DNA of 46,286 nucleotides from a virus. The stretch is taken from positions 1 to 46,286 of IMG/VR virus record IMGVR_UViG_3300035698_017463; one strand, written 5' to 3'. How positions within the stretch are numbered: the first letter of the stretch is position 1; the number at the start of each line of letters is the position of its first letter. A program made the translations under genes and the position numbers. Shown here piece by piece: positions 35,711 through 46,286 of this stretch. Under the pieces are notes generated by a model. The model was given only the letters and a program-made list of their open reading frames with translations, ran no database searches and was not told the origin of the DNA.

Positions 35711-36249
35711 GTAACAATAAAAGAGCACATAAGCAATTATCTGATGCCCTTGAGATCGACCCAGATACAGAAACTGGAGTAGAAGAAGAGGAAGATAATG
35801 CCGCAGAACTTATGGCTAGACTTAGTAAATTTAAAGAAATGAAAGAAGACGCTAAAAAAGCTGCTGCTGAAAATGATAATGATTTTATTAAAGAAACTCT
35901 TCGTGAATTAGCTCTCATGGGACTTCATGCTGGTAGAGTATTAGAAGATGAAATTGAAGTAAATGCTAAAGGGAGAGACGTTGAATGTCTCGCTGGTATT
36001 ATGAATGCTACTAGGGATGCTTTAAAGAAACTTCAGGATGTTGATTTGGATGATAAAAAGATGACTATTGAAGAAAAGAAATTAGCTATAAGACAATCTA
36101 GTAATGGCAAACCTAATTTAACTCAAAATAATATGTTTGTTGGTTCTCATAATGATATGCTTAAAGCAATGAGAGATATTAAGAAATTAGATGAGAGTAA
36201 TGAAAATAATATTATTGATGTGGAAAGTGAGAATATAGATGCCGATTGA
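35707..36249 (+). CDS. 16: Terminase small subunit, gp16
   Basis: 180 residues from the ATG at 35707 (ATGA overlap with the gp15 stop); T4 gp16 has 164. An acidic N-terminus is followed by the central helix pair (ETLRELALMGLHAGRVLEDE and ECLAGIMNATRDALKKL) typical of oligomeric gp16. The tail NGKPNLTQNNMFVGSHNDML matches T4 MNIQNATVFMGSPTEL. gp16 forms a ring that regulates gp17 and recognises concatemers. Its end overlaps the gp17 start by 11 bp. Confidence 0.9.
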   Translation: MSNNKRAHKQLSDALEIDPDTETGVEEEEDNAAELMARLSKFKEMKEDAKKAAAENDNDFIKETLRELALMGLHAGRVLEDEIEVNAKGRDVECLAGIMNATRDALKKLQDVDLDDKKMTIEEKKLAIRQSSNGKPNLTQNNMFVGSHNDMLKAMRDIKKLDESNENNIIDVESENIDAD

Positions 36250-39184
36250 TTATTCGAAACCAGGGATGAAAAAACCAGGAGCAGTCTATGAATGGACATC
36301 TGAGGAACAAATTGAGTTTATGAGATGTGCTCAAGATGTTATCTATTTTGCTGAACATTATTTTTATATTGTCCATCCTGTTAGTGGTAGGCAGCTTATT
36401 AAATTACATGATTTTCAGAAAAACATGCTCAAAAATTTCCAAGCCAACCGATTTAATATTGTGTTGTCTAGTAGACAGATAGGAAAAACTACTTGTTCGG
36501 CTATTTACCTCCTTTGGTTTGCTATGTTTAATCCAGATAAGAAAGTAGCTATTCTTGCTAATAAACAAAACACTGCTGCTAAAATTGTTTCGGATTTAAA
36601 AATGGCATATCTAGAAATGCCAAACTTTATAAAACCAGGCATTGAAAAGTTTGATGCTCTTGGTATTACATTTGATACTGGATCAGCTATTTTTGCTTCA
36701 GCAACTTCTGAAGATGCTATTCGTGGTCATTCTATCGCTTTACTTTTTCTTGATGAATTTGCGTTCGTTCCTGAAAATGTAGCTGACTCGTTCTGGGCAA
36801 GTAACTATCCAACTATTTCTTGCTTACCTAAGGATACTATTTTATTAACCAAAAATGGGTTTGAAGAAATTGGTGATTTTATTCCACACGGTTCTAGTAA
36901 AGGTGACTATGTTCCTATAGATGGTTTAGACGTATGGGGTAAACTAGGATTAGAAACAGTCTCTCATTTTTACGTATCACCGAAATCAAACACAAAAATT
37001 ATAAGAACTCGTTATGGGTTAAAACACGAATCTACTTTAGATCATCCAATTTACACTCTTGATGATAACTCTTTAAAAATGAAACGTAGCGAAGAGATAG
37101 AACTCGGTGATTCTGTTAGAGTTGATTATGGTATGCAAGTTTTTGGTAATAAAGATGTTATCAATTACGAAGATAAAGGTAAATACACCAACGGAAAAAG
37201 TTATTCGTTAGTAGTACCTAAACTAGATAGAGAAACTGGATATTTAATTGGTGGGTACATTGGTGAGGGTTGGATGTCTCAAAATAACGTTTTTATATCT
37301 AATAGCGAAACAGGGTTTAGAGAAGCTTATATTTCATCTGATGTATTCTCATTTAAAACGACGAAATGTGATACCCAGAAACTATCTTCTAATCAAGAAA
37401 CATATAGATTTTTTAAGTATATACTTGGTGATGTGTCTGATAAAAAATGTCACGAAAAGACAATTCCTAAATCTATACTAAAAGCTTCAAAAGAAGTACA
37501 ACAGGGATTTTTGGCTGGGTTAATTGATGCTGATGGCTCAGTATTACCAAGCGGGGATGTTGTCATAACATCTACAAGTGAGGCGCTATTATTACAATCA
37601 CAAATGGTTCTTTTGAACATGGGAATAATTTCTAATTTACATAAATTGAAAATTGATAAGAAGAAAATTATCGGTAATTATGTCTTGCCTCAAGGAAAAA
37701 CTGTGAAAACCCTAAAAGATTCGTATCATTTGGTTATTTCTAGGTGCTTCGGTAAAGAAATTAAGGAGTTTGGTTTAAAATTAAGTAGAAAGAACTCTAA
37801 ACTAAGAACTGATATTGAGGATAGGTATAAAAATAAACAATTTAAAGTTCCTTTAAATAAACTAGTGAAACAAGAATTGTTAAAAATATTTAAAATATCT
37901 GGTTTAACAAAAAAGTACTTCAGAGATAATGGTTTACGGTTAGATAAAGTTTTTAGTGCTCAGTCTAGTAATACTAATATAAATTGGCTTAAAAAGTTTA
38001 TTAAAATCTCAGGAAACAGTACTGAATTATTAGATGATATATTACAAAGTAAATGTTTTTTCGATGAGGTAGTTTCTATAGAATATAACGAAACTGAAAC
38101 CTATGATTTAACTTGTCCAGAAACTCATAGTTTTTTACAAAATGGTATATTAGGAAGCAACACTGGTGGTTCATGTATTATTGTATCTACCCCAAACGGT
38201 ACTGGTGGTCTATATTATGACATATGGCGTAAATCTAACCTACCAGAGGGACATGAAGCTAAAAGTGCCTTTAAGTCATTTAAAGTGAATTGGTGGGAAG
38301 TTCCAGGCAGAGATGATAATTGGAAAAAAGAAACGATAGCTAATATTGGTAAAGTTCGTTTTGCAGCAGAGTATGGTTGTTCATTTACTGGTTCAACACA
38401 TACACTTATTGATGGTGATGCTTTAGAAAGGCTGATCGGCAAAGAACCTATATTGATTCCCGAAGATGGTTATTATATATGGAAGAAACCTGAGCAAGGT
38501 AGACTGTACATGTTTGGGGTGGATGTTGCTAAAGGTTCTAACAATGACTATCATGTAATTAATATTTTTGATGTTACACATTATGGAACTACTGGTAGAA
38601 TTGAACAGGTTGCTATGTATCGTAAAAATGATATTGATCTATTTGCTTTTATCGCAAAGATAAAAATGATAGCATCACATTGGGGTAAGCCTCCTATTAT
38701 TGTAGAAAATAACCATCTTGGTTCCGTTGTTTGTACTGATCTTTTTGAATCAGAATATGATAATCTCTTTTATGATTATGAAAAAGGAGATTATGGAATT
38801 AACGCCAATATTAAAACAAAGCCTATTGCTTGTAGTTATCTTAAGCAAGACATTGAAGAAGGAAGAATGATAATTAATTCAGAAATTTTAGTTTCTGAGT
38901 TAGGTTTCTTTGAGGAGACTCGTCGTGGTGTATTTGAGGCTCGTAAGGGTAATATGTTCCATGACGACACTATAGCTGCATCTTATTGGGTAAGTTATTG
39001 TTTACGTTCTAGATTCTTTGAAGACTTCCTTCATTACTTTAAGGATAAAGACCACGCTGCTGTTAAAGAATTAACTAATAGTAATACCGATGAATTAGCA
39101 GATGAGGATATTGCTAGTTCATTTTTCGGTGGTTTAGGGGATGATGATACCAATATGTTCCAAAACGACTTGTCAAAAATATAA
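36239..39184 (+). CDS. 17: Terminase large subunit, gp17, interrupted by an intein
   Basis: 981 residues, of which 195-641 are an intein. The helicase-like ATPase has Walker A SSRQIGKTT (77-85) and Walker B ALLFLDEFAFVPE (D172, E173). After splicing, motif III continues as TGGSCIIVSTPNGTGG. The RNase H-like nuclease has GVDVAKGSNNDYH, IIVENNHLG and MFHDDTIAASYWV with the acidic triad. The mature protein would be 534 residues (T4 gp17 has 610). gp17 is the packaging motor and cuts concatemers. The intein separates the Walker B region from the coupling motif, so splicing must occur for activity. Confidence 0.96.
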   Translation: MPIDYSKPGMKKPGAVYEWTSEEQIEFMRCAQDVIYFAEHYFYIVHPVSGRQLIKLHDFQKNMLKNFQANRFNIVLSSRQIGKTTCSAIYLLWFAMFNPDKKVAILANKQNTAAKIVSDLKMAYLEMPNFIKPGIEKFDALGITFDTGSAIFASATSEDAIRGHSIALLFLDEFAFVPENVADSFWASNYPTISCLPKDTILLTKNGFEEIGDFIPHGSSKGDYVPIDGLDVWGKLGLETVSHFYVSPKSNTKIIRTRYGLKHESTLDHPIYTLDDNSLKMKRSEEIELGDSVRVDYGMQVFGNKDVINYEDKGKYTNGKSYSLVVPKLDRETGYLIGGYIGEGWMSQNNVFISNSETGFREAYISSDVFSFKTTKCDTQKLSSNQETYRFFKYILGDVSDKKCHEKTIPKSILKASKEVQQGFLAGLIDADGSVLPSGDVVITSTSEALLLQSQMVLLNMGIISNLHKLKIDKKKIIGNYVLPQGKTVKTLKDSYHLVISRCFGKEIKEFGLKLSRKNSKLRTDIEDRYKNKQFKVPLNKLVKQELLKIFKISGLTKKYFRDNGLRLDKVFSAQSSNTNINWLKKFIKISGNSTELLDDILQSKCFFDEVVSIEYNETETYDLTCPETHSFLQNGILGSNTGGSCIIVSTPNGTGGLYYDIWRKSNLPEGHEAKSAFKSFKVNWWEVPGRDDNWKKETIANIGKVRFAAEYGCSFTGSTHTLIDGDALERLIGKEPILIPEDGYYIWKKPEQGRLYMFGVDVAKGSNNDYHVINIFDVTHYGTTGRIEQVAMYRKNDIDLFAFIAKIKMIASHWGKPPIIVENNHLGSVVCTDLFESEYDNLFYDYEKGDYGINANIKTKPIACSYLKQDIEEGRMIINSEILVSELGFFEETRRGVFEARKGNMFHDDTIAASYWVSYCLRSRFFEDFLHYFKDKDHAAVKELTNSNTDELADEDIASSFFGGLGDDDTNMFQNDLSKI
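36821..38161 (+). other. LAGLIDADG homing-endonuclease intein in gp17
   Basis: 447 codons in frame. Block A is CLPKDTILLTKNGFEEI, block B LKHESTLDHPIYTL. The two dodecapeptide motifs are GYLIGGYIGEG and LAGLIDADGSV. The end has ETYDLTCPETHSFLQNGILG followed by Ser-Asn, with Thr as the first residue after the intein. The homing domain appears intact. The penultimate Ser replaces the usual His, as in the split intein of uvsW in this window. Confidence 0.93.
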
Positions 39185-41294: not shown

Positions 41295-41966
41295 ATGCCA
41301 TTTCCAGAAGGTGTAGAACCAATGAACTTATATAGCTTTCGTCAGACTGTACGTGACGTTAGCAGACCATATTTGTTCATGGTAGAAATGCCGTTTATTG
41401 ACGGTAACAATGCAAAAGTCACTGCTTTTGCTCGCTCAACTACATTACCTAAGTACTCAGTTGGTACTATTGAGATTCCTTTTCAATCTCAGAGGCTTCG
41501 CTTCGCTGGTCCAGCTACTATTGACGGTACTTGGCAGATTGAGTTTCTTTGCGACGAACTTCATAGTCTTCGCAACCGTTTTATGCAGTGGCTCCAAATA
41601 GAATACAACCCACAGGCGCTTCTTGCAGGCGCTCCAGTTTCATATAAGTATGATAACTGTAAAGTTTATCAACTTGCTCGTAATGGTGAAGTTGTTGTAT
41701 CCTATCAGTTTGTTGGATTATTCCCAACTAACGTAGGCGAAATCGCACTTAACCATGAAGAAACTGGTTTCTCAAGATTCCCAGTTGAGTTTGCTTATGA
41801 CTACTTTACTGTAAGCAGTGATGATCCATTCGACGCTGCTCAAGATGTAGTTGCGTTTAACTACAACGATGTTGGTATAGCCAATGGTACTGATCCAGGC
41901 GCAATCGTTGAAGGCGAAGATATCAACGGTGACGTTGGTGTCGTTGGTTCAAACGCTGGAGCTTAA
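41295..41966 (+). CDS. 19: Tail tube protein, gp19
   Basis: 223 residues (T4 gp19 has 163). SRPYLFMVEMPF, TAFARSTTLPKYSVGTIEIP and FAGPATIDGTWQIEFLCDEL are gp19 signatures, and RFPVEFAYDYFTV closes the fold. The last about 55 residues form an acidic Gly/Asn/Asp-rich extension absent from T4. GGAGG lies upstream. It is directly downstream of gp18, as in T4. Confidence 0.94.
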   Translation: MPFPEGVEPMNLYSFRQTVRDVSRPYLFMVEMPFIDGNNAKVTAFARSTTLPKYSVGTIEIPFQSQRLRFAGPATIDGTWQIEFLCDELHSLRNRFMQWLQIEYNPQALLAGAPVSYKYDNCKVYQLARNGEVVVSYQFVGLFPTNVGEIALNHEETGFSRFPVEFAYDYFTVSSDDPFDAAQDVVAFNYNDVGIANGTDPGAIVEGEDINGDVGVVGSNAGA

Positions 41967-42050: not shown

Positions 42051-42734
42051 ATGCCATTTCCAGCATCTGATGTATTTAACGGTGAAAATGAAATAGTAAC
42101 CCTTAAAGATTTTCGTTATTTAGTTAACGATATTTCTCGTCCTTATCTATTCGAACTTCAGATGCCAATGATTGATACTGATAGTATTAAAATGTCAGCA
42201 TATGCTAGGTCTACAACCCTTCCTGGTTATGAGTTAAATGTAGTTGATATTAAATTTCAAACTCAAACATTAAAAGTTGCAGGGGGTTCTAGTGGATCGC
42301 AGAGTTGGACTGTTGAGTTTCTTTGTGACCCAGTATTTTCTTTAAGAAGTAAATTTATTGCGTGGATGAGTTTAGCTTATGAACCATCTAGATTATTAAC
42401 TGGTTCTCCTCAGTCATATAAGAATGATGCCACCAGAATAACACAGTTAAGTAGAAAAGGCGATCCTGTCCAAGGTTATAACTTTATAGGTATATTTCCT
42501 TCAAAAGTTAGTGATATGACAGTATCTCACGAATCAACAGACTATCATAAGTTTTCGGTAGATTTTGCTTTTGACTTTTTTACTGTTGAATCATTAGGTA
42601 TAAATAGTATTAACACTAATGTTAATTTAGGGGTTACTGGTCTTAATCAGAGAACAACCAATAGCGGGGATATTAACACTCGTATTGGTAATTTTAGTGA
42701 GAGTACCCCAGCGGGTATTACTAATTTCATCTAG
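42051..42734 (+). CDS. Second tail tube-like protein (gp19 paralogue)
   Basis: 227 residues. It shares with the preceding gene the start MPFP, SRPYLFELQMP against SRPYLFMVEMP, YARSTTLPGY against FARSTTLPKY, VEFLCDPVFSLRSKF against IEFLCDELHSLRNRF, and FSVDFAFDFFTVES at the end. It has its own C-terminal tail, rich in Asn/Thr. It may be a minor tube protein for the first or last ring, comparable to gp54, which is gp19-related, or a diverged spare. AGGAG precedes the ATG. A separate promoter lies in the inverted repeat upstream. Confidence 0.85.
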   Translation: MPFPASDVFNGENEIVTLKDFRYLVNDISRPYLFELQMPMIDTDSIKMSAYARSTTLPGYELNVVDIKFQTQTLKVAGGSSGSQSWTVEFLCDPVFSLRSKFIAWMSLAYEPSRLLTGSPQSYKNDATRITQLSRKGDPVQGYNFIGIFPSKVSDMTVSHESTDYHKFSVDFAFDFFTVESLGINSINTNVNLGVTGLNQRTTNSGDINTRIGNFSESTPAGITNFI

Positions 42735-42761: not shown

Positions 42762-42805
42762 AACTAAATCGCTTATATTATGCGATAATAAAAAGGAGTT
42801 AATTT

Positions 42806-43597
42806 ATGTCAGATCGCCCAGGTTTTGATATCAAGGATTTGAAGAAGGTATATGCTACTAAATCAAGCCCTGAAACGACCGTAAAGCTTTGTTATACACA
42901 ACGCGAGGTTTATATTCGTCCTATGAAAATTAAGGACAAGAAAGAAGTACTCAAGGCAATTGAGTCTAAGAAAGAAAACATTATCAATAAAGCCCTTGAT
43001 GAAATCATTGAGAAGTATGTAGAACCTGTTGATGGTGATGAGTTCGAGGTTAAACATTTAACTACACAAGAAAGACATCAGATTCTAGTTCATATCAGAG
43101 TAGCCGCTGCTGGCGAAACTGCAAAAATCGTTCATGAATGTCCTCATTGTGAAACTCTTAATAGGAACATCGAATATAACTTAAATGATATGTATGTCCA
43201 ATCTTATAAAGAACCAGAAACTGGTAATTTTATTGAGTTGGCAGAGGGGGCTATTAAGGTACATCTTGGTCCTATGACAAGAGACACTGAAGTTCAAATT
43301 GAGTCTTATATTAAGAAAAACAGAATCGAGACTGCTTCTGAAAAGAATTTTGCTCTTATGTCTGGGGTAATTAAGAAAATAGAAATGAATCAAGATGATA
43401 TGATTGGTGAGGTAACTATGTCCGTTCAGGATAGAGTTGAGTTCTTTGAAAATCTTTCTAATAAGGAATTCGAAATTATAACTGAATATTTTAAGTCTAT
43501 TGATTTTGGCGCTAAGATGCCTTTTGACTTTACGTGTGAAAAATGTGGTCACTCAGAAGAGCAGGAAGTGAACGTTGCCGTTTTTTTTATCAGTTGA
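42806..43597 (+). CDS. 26: gp26-like baseplate hub / tail assembly protein
   Basis: 263 residues (T4 gp26 has 208). It follows the T4 gp26 type pattern: VYIRPMKIKDKKEVLKAIES, LTTQERHQILVHIRVAAAGE, and a zinc-ribbon-like CPHC at about residues 112-115 with CEKCG near the end. It lies directly before a small overlapping ORF and the tape measure gene. The last codons GTT TTT TTT (43580-43588) form a canonical -1 slippery heptamer, so a second, longer product is likely. Name by family pattern and position; no search was run. Confidence 0.75.
   Translation: MSDRPGFDIKDLKKVYATKSSPETTVKLCYTQREVYIRPMKIKDKKEVLKAIESKKENIINKALDEIIEKYVEPVDGDEFEVKHLTTQERHQILVHIRVAAAGETAKIVHECPHCETLNRNIEYNLNDMYVQSYKEPETGNFIELAEGAIKVHLGPMTRDTEVQIESYIKKNRIETASEKNFALMSGVIKKIEMNQDDMIGEVTMSVQDRVEFFENLSNKEFEIITEYFKSIDFGAKMPFDFTCEKCGHSEEQEVNVAVFFIS
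43581..43588 (+). promoter_or_regulatory. Probable -1 programmed frameshift site
   Basis: Eight T in a row, read in the zero frame as GTT TTT TTT ATC, which contains T TTT TTT in X XXY YYZ register. The zero frame stops 7 nt later (TGA 43595-43597). A slip of -1 enters the frame of the next ORF and yields a fusion of about 356 residues. Confidence 0.6.
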
Positions 43598-43875
43598 TGT
43601 TAATGGACAGTTGCTACCAACAGGTAGTCAATGAATGTATTGAATTAGCCATTTGGAGTGCTCCTTCTATAAATATACCTCAGATAGACAATTTAGATAT
43701 TGTTGAGTTCGAAATATATCGAAAAGTCTTCAGAAACAAGTTTGAAGAGGAAGCGAAAAATAAGAACGAATTCATCAAGAATACATTTGAGTTTGCAAGA
43801 AAGGGCATTGAAGTTATTTGTAAGACGATTGCTGGGGCATTCGGGACAAAAACAAATACAAATAACTTAAAATAA
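43597..43875 (+). CDS. Small ORF before the tape measure; probable frameshift partner
   Basis: 92 residues if started at the ATG at 43597 (TGATG overlap with the preceding stop; a second ATG is at 43603). It has no good ribosome site, which favours expression by coupling or by -1 frameshift. The sequence CYQQVVNECIELAIWSAPSI, then EFEIYRKVFRNKFEEEAKNK, is helical and charged. By position it matches the second part of tail assembly chaperone pairs (lambda G-T) or T4 gene 51. I recognise no homologue with certainty. Confidence 0.65.
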   Translation: MLMDSCYQQVVNECIELAIWSAPSINIPQIDNLDIVEFEIYRKVFRNKFEEEAKNKNEFIKNTFEFARKGIEVICKTIAGAFGTKTNTNNLK

Positions 43876-43880
43876 AAATT

Positions 43881-46286
43881 ATGGCACTCGGAGCAAAAGC
43901 AGCAATAGCACTTATTCAAGCAAGACAAAAAGCAGCCGTCGAAAGAGACGAAGCTGAAAAAGTTACTATTAAGCAAATTAAAGAGAAGCTCATACAAATT
44001 GAACAGATGGTCAAAAAGGGCAACCAGTCTGATGAATCTCAAAAAGTTAAAAGAGAAGAGCTTTATAGAATTGCCACCGATCTCAAATCAGCTATACCTA
44101 AACAAACCCAGTTTATAAATGATATAAAAGTAGACGCTGCCCGTATTGAAGATTTTATAGAGGTTGGGCTTGCTAGGGTTTTTACGGGTTTAGGTAGTAT
44201 TACTAAAGGTATGGGGGTTATTACTAATTCTATTAAGAGTGGGTTTATTGGTATTAAAAATTCATTTATTAGTATTAGTAGTAATACTATTAATGCAGTT
44301 AAAGGATTTATAAGGAATACTTGGTCTAATGTTAATAGATTCCTAACACTTGATATTAGAAAACAATTAAGTAACGTAATGGGTTTGATAACTGGTGGTA
44401 TCAGACGAATTATAGGTGGTGCTATATCTTTAGCTGTTAAAGGTATTAAAATGGCTATCGGAGTAGTCACTGGTATTATTAAGACAGGATTTAGAATAGT
44501 AACTGGTGTTATACTAGGTGCTCTTAAAATGGCATGGCAAAGTATTAAATGGGCTATTGGTAAAGTTTGGAGCCTTGTTTCAAATCTTGCATCTTTTGTA
44601 GTTAATTTTGTATGGCGCAGTCTTATGAAGGTTGGTTCTTTTATATTAGGTTTTGTTTGGAATACTATTAAATGGGTTGCTGGCGCAATAGCAGGTTTTC
44701 TTTGGAAAGGCATCAAAAGTATTGTATCCACAGTAGGTAAAACATTATTATTCATGACTACCCAATTAGTTAGTATAATTGCTACAGTTGTAATGAGTGC
44801 TTTTGGTCCGTATCTAGCTATAATAGGTGGAGTATTTCTAATTGTAATGGCTCTTAGTGGTAAACTAGGTGAATGGTGGAATAGTCTTTTAGACTGGTTT
44901 GGGTTTGGTGGTGATTCGTCAACGCCAGTTGCTCAATCTGCTGATGAAAATAAACCAGGATTTTGGAAATCTATATATGATTGGATGTGGGGTGGTAATG
45001 GTGCGAATGCAGGATGGCTAAAAAAAGGATTGACTTTTGTTGGTGATACTATAGTAAAAGCTTTTGGGTTAGCGGAAAATATGGCGGCATTAACTGGCAA
45101 TGTTGTAGTTGAATGGGCTGATAAATATATTTTAACCCCTATTACTGATTTTCTTCAAAGTAATACCTTTGGTAAATGGATTTCTAGTTTATTTAATGAT
45201 TTAAGAAGGTACTTATTTGGAGAAACCACCGAAGATGTTAGTGGTGATATTGCTTCTCGTTCTAATAGGCTTAATGAAATAAAAGGTAAATTTGGTGGTA
45301 ATATCAACACTCTTACTGAAGATTTTAATTTATTGAAAGAGGCTTCTCAACTTTTAAGCCAGAATGAGGAAGACAGAGCCAGATTAAAAAGTGGTAATTT
45401 AAATCAAGGTCTAGTTAGTAGAGTAGGCAAAACTTTGTCTAAATGGTGGTTGGGTGAGGGTTTAAACTGGAAAACCCCAGATTCGGCATCTCCATTTGGC
45501 TCTATTCTTAATGCTATATTTGGAAACGAAAGCCAATGGTGGAATTGGTCATCAGAAGAAGGAGTTGTTGGTGGTGTTAATAAATTTGTTTATAATGAAG
45601 TGTATATTCCATTAGTTGAATTCTTTTCTGTTTCAATTCTTCCTTATTTACAACAAATGCTAGAATGGATAGCTATTTTAGTTGGACGTAATGACGAAGC
45701 ATCAGCAACATCAATACGAAATAAAATGGCTGATCTTTATGAAATTTCTAGACAAATGCGTAGTGATATTGGTGCTAAATCTAGTATGGGAAGTAGTGGT
45801 TTAGCTGAAAGTTTCGATAATGCTACAGGAGGTGATACAAAATCCTCTTTTTCCTCTTTTTATCATGATTTGGGTTCAGAAAGAGACAGAGTTATCGCTA
45901 ATCAGGTTTTCTCTAATGTTACTGAAGATCAAATATCAAAAGCTATACAGCAGATGATGAAAGATAATCCTAGTAGATGGTCAAATGAGAATAGAGCAAT
46001 TGATGATCTTGTTTCGAACCCTAAAATTTATGAAGAGTACATGAATGACGAATCATTTCGATACCAAGTATCTACTGGTTTAGCTGGCGGGGAATCTCTT
46101 TTTAATGCTGCAACTCCTGCTTTTCAAGAATATGTAAGTGAATTGAGAAGAATGGTAACTAGTTTGACTTTTTCTTTGAATAAAAATCATTTTCAGTTTG
46201 ATGAATCGAGCCGTCTTGCCTTCGATAATGTTGTTACTTCTGGTTGGGCGAAATATGGCATAAAATTAAATCCTGATTCGTTTGAC
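43881..46286 (+). CDS. Tape measure-like tail protein, partial
   Basis: 802 codons are present, open to the right edge. The first 100 residues are helical and charged (RQKAAVERDEAEKVTIKQIK). Residues about 100-340 are a hydrophobic, Gly/Ile/Trp-rich stretch with a repeating pattern such as IKSGFIGIKNSFISISSN and VSIIATVVMSAFGPYLAIIG. This is the membrane-active type of segment found in tape measure proteins. The rest is mixed. It directly follows the putative chaperone pair. T4 gp29 is the functional counterpart, but similarity to it was not seen by eye. The ATG has no strong ribosome site. Confidence 0.75.
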   Translation, partial: MALGAKAAIALIQARQKAAVERDEAEKVTIKQIKEKLIQIEQMVKKGNQSDESQKVKREELYRIATDLKSAIPKQTQFINDIKVDAARIEDFIEVGLARVFTGLGSITKGMGVITNSIKSGFIGIKNSFISISSNTINAVKGFIRNTWSNVNRFLTLDIRKQLSNVMGLITGGIRRIIGGAISLAVKGIKMAIGVVTGIIKTGFRIVTGVILGALKMAWQSIKWAIGKVWSLVSNLASFVVNFVWRSLMKVGSFILGFVWNTIKWVAGAIAGFLWKGIKSIVSTVGKTLLFMTTQLVSIIATVVMSAFGPYLAIIGGVFLIVMALSGKLGEWWNSLLDWFGFGGDSSTPVAQSADENKPGFWKSIYDWMWGGNGANAGWLKKGLTFVGDTIVKAFGLAENMAALTGNVVVEWADKYILTPITDFLQSNTFGKWISSLFNDLRRYLFGETTEDVSGDIASRSNRLNEIKGKFGGNINTLTEDFNLLKEASQLLSQNEEDRARLKSGNLNQGLVSRVGKTLSKWWLGEGLNWKTPDSASPFGSILNAIFGNESQWWNWSSEEGVVGGVNKFVYNEVYIPLVEFFSVSILPYLQQMLEWIAILVGRNDEASATSIRNKMADLYEISRQMRSDIGAKSSMGSSGLAESFDNATGGDTKSSFSSFYHDLGSERDRVIANQVFSNVTEDQISKAIQQMMKDNPSRWSNENRAIDDLVSNPKIYEEYMNDESFRYQVSTGLAGGESLFNAATPAFQEYVSELRRMVTSLTFSLNKNHFQFDESSRLAFDNVVTSGWAKYGIKLNPDSFD

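Follow-up and report, generated by a model that had tools for sequence, protein, structure and literature searches.

A highly probable programmed −1 ribosomal frameshift would yield short and long tail assembly chaperones in an uncultivated T4-like clade

In phage lambda, the small gene that precedes the tape measure gene gives a short and a long product, gpG and gpGT, through a −1 frameshift close to its 3' end. The lambda slippery sequence differs from U_UUU_UUU. For T4-like phages, Vladimirov et al. 2022 (PMID 34826709) reportedly name T4 genes 26 and 51 and describe frameshifting as conserved in several T4-like groups. According to a 2016 review, G-T frameshifting is a conserved trait of long-tailed phages, 'except T4' (PMC5009743). 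The PRFect article, citing Vladimirov et al. 2022, speaks of some T4-like phages with one short and one fused long tail assembly chaperone (TAC) gene and no frameshifting (PMC10885494). In a further article, which cites Vladimirov, Gautam & Davidson 2022, poly-T slippery signals in T4-like TAC-N genes are treated as known (PMC12846349). Pseudomonas phage Adele (Vandenendeviridae/Andersonviridae) is likewise a myovirus; in its TAC locus an invariant GTTTTT lies close to the end of TAC-N, and the −1 frame stays open ahead of the tape measure gene (PMC12846349).

Here we analyse the window, a whole stretch of 46,286 nucleotides from the IMG/VR virus record IMGVR_UViG_3300035698_017463. Its TAC locus, on the + strand, resembles those of T4-like phages in having a PF12322/gp26 TAC-N, a poly-T slippery site at the 3' end, a −1 TAC-C and the tape measure gene next. 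On the other hand, the clade to which it belongs is deeply divergent and uncultivated. It carries U_UUU_UUU where other T4-like TACs commonly carry U_UUU_UUC, has a TAC-C of about 95 aa rather than 54–63, and shows a hairpin under selection, whereas T4 itself uses two genes instead of a frameshift. Lambda is a siphophage, unlike this T4-like virus, and is likened to it by arrangement. Similarly, the Vandenendeviridae/Andersonviridae are different phage families from this clade and are likened to it by locus layout. As far as we found, the clade, its U7 site, the longer C-domain and the hairpin are new. A sequence-only reading of the window had proposed that such recoding may unify T4 gp26 and gp51 with tail assembly chaperones. 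The idea is right but not new, as it goes back to Vladimirov et al. 2022, cited in PMC10885494 and PMC12846349.

The ORF at 42806–43597 encodes TAC-N, a putative short tail assembly chaperone of 263 aa in the T4 gp26 family. It matches PF12322 (T4_baseplate) with E=9e-27 and 94.7 bits, where membership means a profile match above the curated cut-off (24.5), and phrog_150 'baseplate hub' with E=3e-26. T4 gp26 and gp51 match the same PF12322 model, in line with the earlier description of this ORF as gp26-like. The AF2 model of TAC-N (pLDDT 87) matches gp26-type proteins of many myophages with E down to 4e-13. These fold matches are predicted phage gp26-type proteins only; no PDB entry was matched by fold at E<=0.001, and a sequence search of the PDB was also empty. 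A Shine-Dalgarno (SD) sequence, AGGAG, precedes the gene at 42794–42798, with an anti-SD duplex of −6.6 kcal/mol.

The 3' end of this frame reads GTT TTT TTT ATC AGT TGA. Its T8 run at 43581–43588 contains an in-frame slippery heptamer, T_TTT_TTT (43582–43588), in the right register for tandem −1 slippage, and the first base of the 0-frame stop TGA (43595–43597) follows 7 nt after it. An open −1 frame extends from 43540 to the stop at 43873–43875, and its first ATG 3' of the slip site (43597–43599) shares a base with the 0-frame stop, as TGATG. A slip on the second TTT would join 261 residues to the 95 residues of TAC-C (43588–43875), giving a predicted fusion, TAC-NC, of 356 residues. The ATG has no SD, with an anti-SD duplex of +1.2 kcal/mol compared with −6.3 to −11.3 kcal/mol for the gp26, tube and sheath genes, making it a possible but poor start for a separate TAC-C. 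The sequence-only reading had described just this arrangement: a perfect X_XXY_YYZ site within T8 in the frame GTT TTT TTT, 7 nt from the stop, a next ORF in the −1 frame that overlaps the stop by TGATG and lacks a ribosome site, and a product of about 356 residues.

Of the window's 49 ORFs with 100 aa or more, this one alone combines an in-frame X_XXY_YYZ in its last six codons with a −1 extension that is 40 aa or longer. Among 2.9 million viral contigs, the TTTTTTTATCARYTRATG motif was found in 65 stretches, 18 of which are ends of gp26 homologues (0-frame ORF of 231–282 aa); the others all lie within 0-frame stretches shorter than 100 aa.

The genes follow the order tube, TAC-N, TAC-C and tape measure, with the sheath gene also upstream. 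Directly upstream of TAC-N, we notice two tandem tail tube paralogues (gp19-like, phrog_45) at 41295–41966 and 42051–42734. The tape-measure-like gene (43881–46286) begins 5 nt after the TAC-C stop, without an SD, and runs off the window. Its match to phrog_1272 'tail length tape measure' is weak (E=0.019). In a virus with 99% identity the gene is present in full; its product has 1032 aa and ends with ..LAEAGDPEMVIPL.., containing a C-terminal AEAGDPEMVIPL motif that we take to be typical of tape measure proteins. We call the gene 'tape-measure-like' from the weak profile match, the length and this motif. With phrog_45 tube genes on one side and this gene on the other, the pair stands directly 5' of the tape measure, where it had been placed from the letters.

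Relatives were collected via their sheath and gp26 proteins and by DNA pattern. They provided 15 distinct sequences, with the relatives 52–67% identical to the window in nucleotides; the sequences share descent, and counts among them are not independent trials. The codons of the heptamer are invariant in 15/15. Synonymous-codon identity is 49% overall. Among the 50 columns that can be compared, just four, GTT(or GCT)-TTT-TTT-ATC(or ATG), show full codon identity among same-residue pairs. Two other invariant Phe columns mix TTT and TTC (9:6 and 6:9). T8 is shortened to T7 in L023, by an Ala codon (GC TTTTTTT), and in L108, by a Ser codon (after AG). Judged from this alignment, it is T_TTT_TTT as a heptamer that is kept, rather than T8. 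The slip arrangement, with a stop at most three codons downstream, is always present in the 15 relatives and in cultured phage genomes. The sequence-only reading had proposed to check the T run and its frame in relatives, with a run that was not conserved counting against frameshifting. The run proved to be conserved in the 15 relatives, as heptamer, codons and frame, though T8 itself is not always retained.

The −1 ORF stays open in every relative, and its dN/dS, where computable, is 0.04–0.07, indicating strong purifying selection at a synonymous divergence near saturation. The AF2 model of TAC-C is helical (pLDDT 79). In this clade TAC-C has an added conserved tail, 'NTFEFAxKxxExICKTI', and an HMM search gave no PHROG match for it, phrog_634 included. 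Its tie to the TAC-C of other T4-like phages is weak (hhalign E=7e-4, probability 26%). Foldseek matches in BFVD all have E>=0.19 and are mostly small phage proteins; one of them, in Moogle, is named tape measure chaperone (E=1.1).

Downstream of the slip site, we located a hairpin at 43600–43643, a presumed frameshift stimulator that the sequence-only reading had not noticed. Shuffles that hold the −1 frame amino acids and codon usage fixed revealed that the 45 nt following the heptamer are more stable than expected across the clade (mean z about −3), while windows across gp26 gave z of about −0.2 in the same test. When the first four codons were also fixed, the clade mean was −14.8 vs −7.9 kcal/mol, with a group z of −10.8. 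Taken one by one, the window (z −1.6), L013 and L029 do not reach significance for the hairpin. Counted from the heptamer, it mostly starts at +11 or +12, on the final base of the ATG or the one that follows. The usual spacing between heptamer and stimulatory structure is 5–9 nt, and the hairpin of this clade usually lies farther, at 10–11 nt. RNAalifold on the 15-sequence alignment returned no consensus pairs, because the register of the hairpin shifts among sequences. Upstream of the slip site, an SD-like AGGAAG (43563–43568) is a possible weak stimulator: the clade mean anti-SD dG of this region is −7.2 vs −4.2 for synonymous shuffles. The window's own copy is no better than shuffles. Any contribution of this SD-like sequence would be weak at best, and the case for it in the window is unconvincing.

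These observations have to be weighed against other ways of reading the junction. Ribosomes might terminate at TGA and restart at TGATG, making a separate 92-residue TAC-C with no frameshift. A TRATG overlap is indeed found in every clade member, as well as in Vibrio D527/1.081 and Mendera. However, a restart leaves the frozen synonymous sites upstream (T_TTT_TTT) unexplained, the ATG is preceded by no SD, and a hairpin right after it should hinder initiation. Moreover, there are related phages without an ATG at the junction: cyanophages P-SSM7 and S-CAM22, S13, pf16, Astolliot and IC12. Ordinary initiation there therefore cannot explain the conserved −1 peptide. We consider restart very improbable as the sole explanation, and some separate initiation of TAC-C is possible because the junction ATG is invariant in this clade.

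An eight-T run is within the range where transcriptional slippage can occur. RNA polymerase might thus add or drop a U at T8, so that edited mRNA encodes the fusion, and the protein outcome would be the same or nearly so. Against this, T8 is an accident of the Val codon that becomes T7 with Ala (L023) or Ser (L108), other phages have T6C, and a selected downstream RNA structure is what ribosomal slippage leads one to expect; editing of this kind seems just as improbable as restart. Homopolymer runs are also error-prone in sequencing, and a single longer gene might have been split artificially. The same arrangement, however, recurs in cultured phage genomes and in the 15 distinct relatives, which come from different samples, and this conservation refutes a sequencing error in practice, leaving it a negligible probability.

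A programmed −1 ribosomal frameshift producing two tail assembly chaperones is thus by far the most probable explanation, in which we infer the slippage, its rate and the chaperone role. Strong support for this reading, with its short and long chaperones, comes from the conserved site and frame, from the selection acting on the −1 ORF, from RNA structure and from gene order. Most ribosomes would terminate at TGA 43595 and release the 263-residue TAC-N. In a minority, the Phe-tRNAs that occupy the P and A sites on TTT TTT would move back one base at U_UUU_UUU, and the slipped ribosomes would read on in the −1 frame to give the 356-residue TAC-NC. The hairpin about 10 nt downstream probably pauses the ribosome, perhaps aided by the SD-like sequence upstream. 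By analogy with lambda gpG/gpGT, TAC-N may coat the tape measure protein encoded downstream, and TAC-NC may recruit the tail tube subunit. The selected hairpin offers a concrete candidate stimulator.

In ten other T4-like phages, a heptamer lies a few codons from the gp26 stop and is followed by a −1 ORF of 54–63 residues. The heptamer is T_TTT_TTC in P-SSM7, S-PM2, S-CAM22, Vibrio D527, Vibrio 1.081, Astolliot, Mendera, S13 and IC12, and T_TTT_TTT at the same place in pf16. In some cyanophages, the conserved −1 peptide begins upstream of the annotated 'gp51' start, without an ATG. T4 gp26 and gp51, both in PF12322, are encoded by separate, divergently transcribed genes, and gp51 is extended at its C-terminus by a region that matches phrog_634, to which the cyanophage −1 ORF also belongs. 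On these profile matches, T4 appears to have a separate gene for each form, with TAC-N as gp26 and TAC-NC as gp51. Our findings add a deep, uncultivated branch to those in which the T4-type tail chaperone takes the frameshifting form, and support the idea that this form is the widespread one among T4-like phages, with the two-gene layout of T4 (26 plus 51) as the exception. They also correct annotation: what is annotated as a 'gp51' gene in some cyanophages is the −1 half of a single protein.

Two side observations concern annotated neighbours of gp26. The cyanophage 'gp51' genes (L003:4783-4878, L005:4738-4875) are annotated from internal ATGs. CBA120 (Ackermannviridae; L043:2783-2968) and Vibrio phage K369 (L044:2558-2758) have a −1 ORF after gp26 and no canonical X_XXY_YYZ.

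At the other end of TAC-C, we notice that the SD-less tape-measure start lies 3–6 nt after the TAC-C stop in the window (43861–43881) and in most of the clade. The start has no SD in 7 of the 10 relatives examined. An SD-less start so near the TAC-C stop suggests translational coupling to TAC-C. It is conceivable, though unlikely, that frameshifting gates not only the chaperone but also the tape measure gene. Only ribosomes that had slipped and finished TAC-C would then start the tape measure, and the hairpin that follows the unused ATG would have two effects, favouring the slip and preventing stray initiation. If gating were true, the slip rate would set the dose of tape measure and long chaperone together.

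Elsewhere in the window, the large terminase (981 aa, 36239–39184) contains an apparent intein at about residues 200–640, CLPKDTILLT...HSFLQNGILGSN, with terminase matches on both sides of it and phrog_9666 inside.
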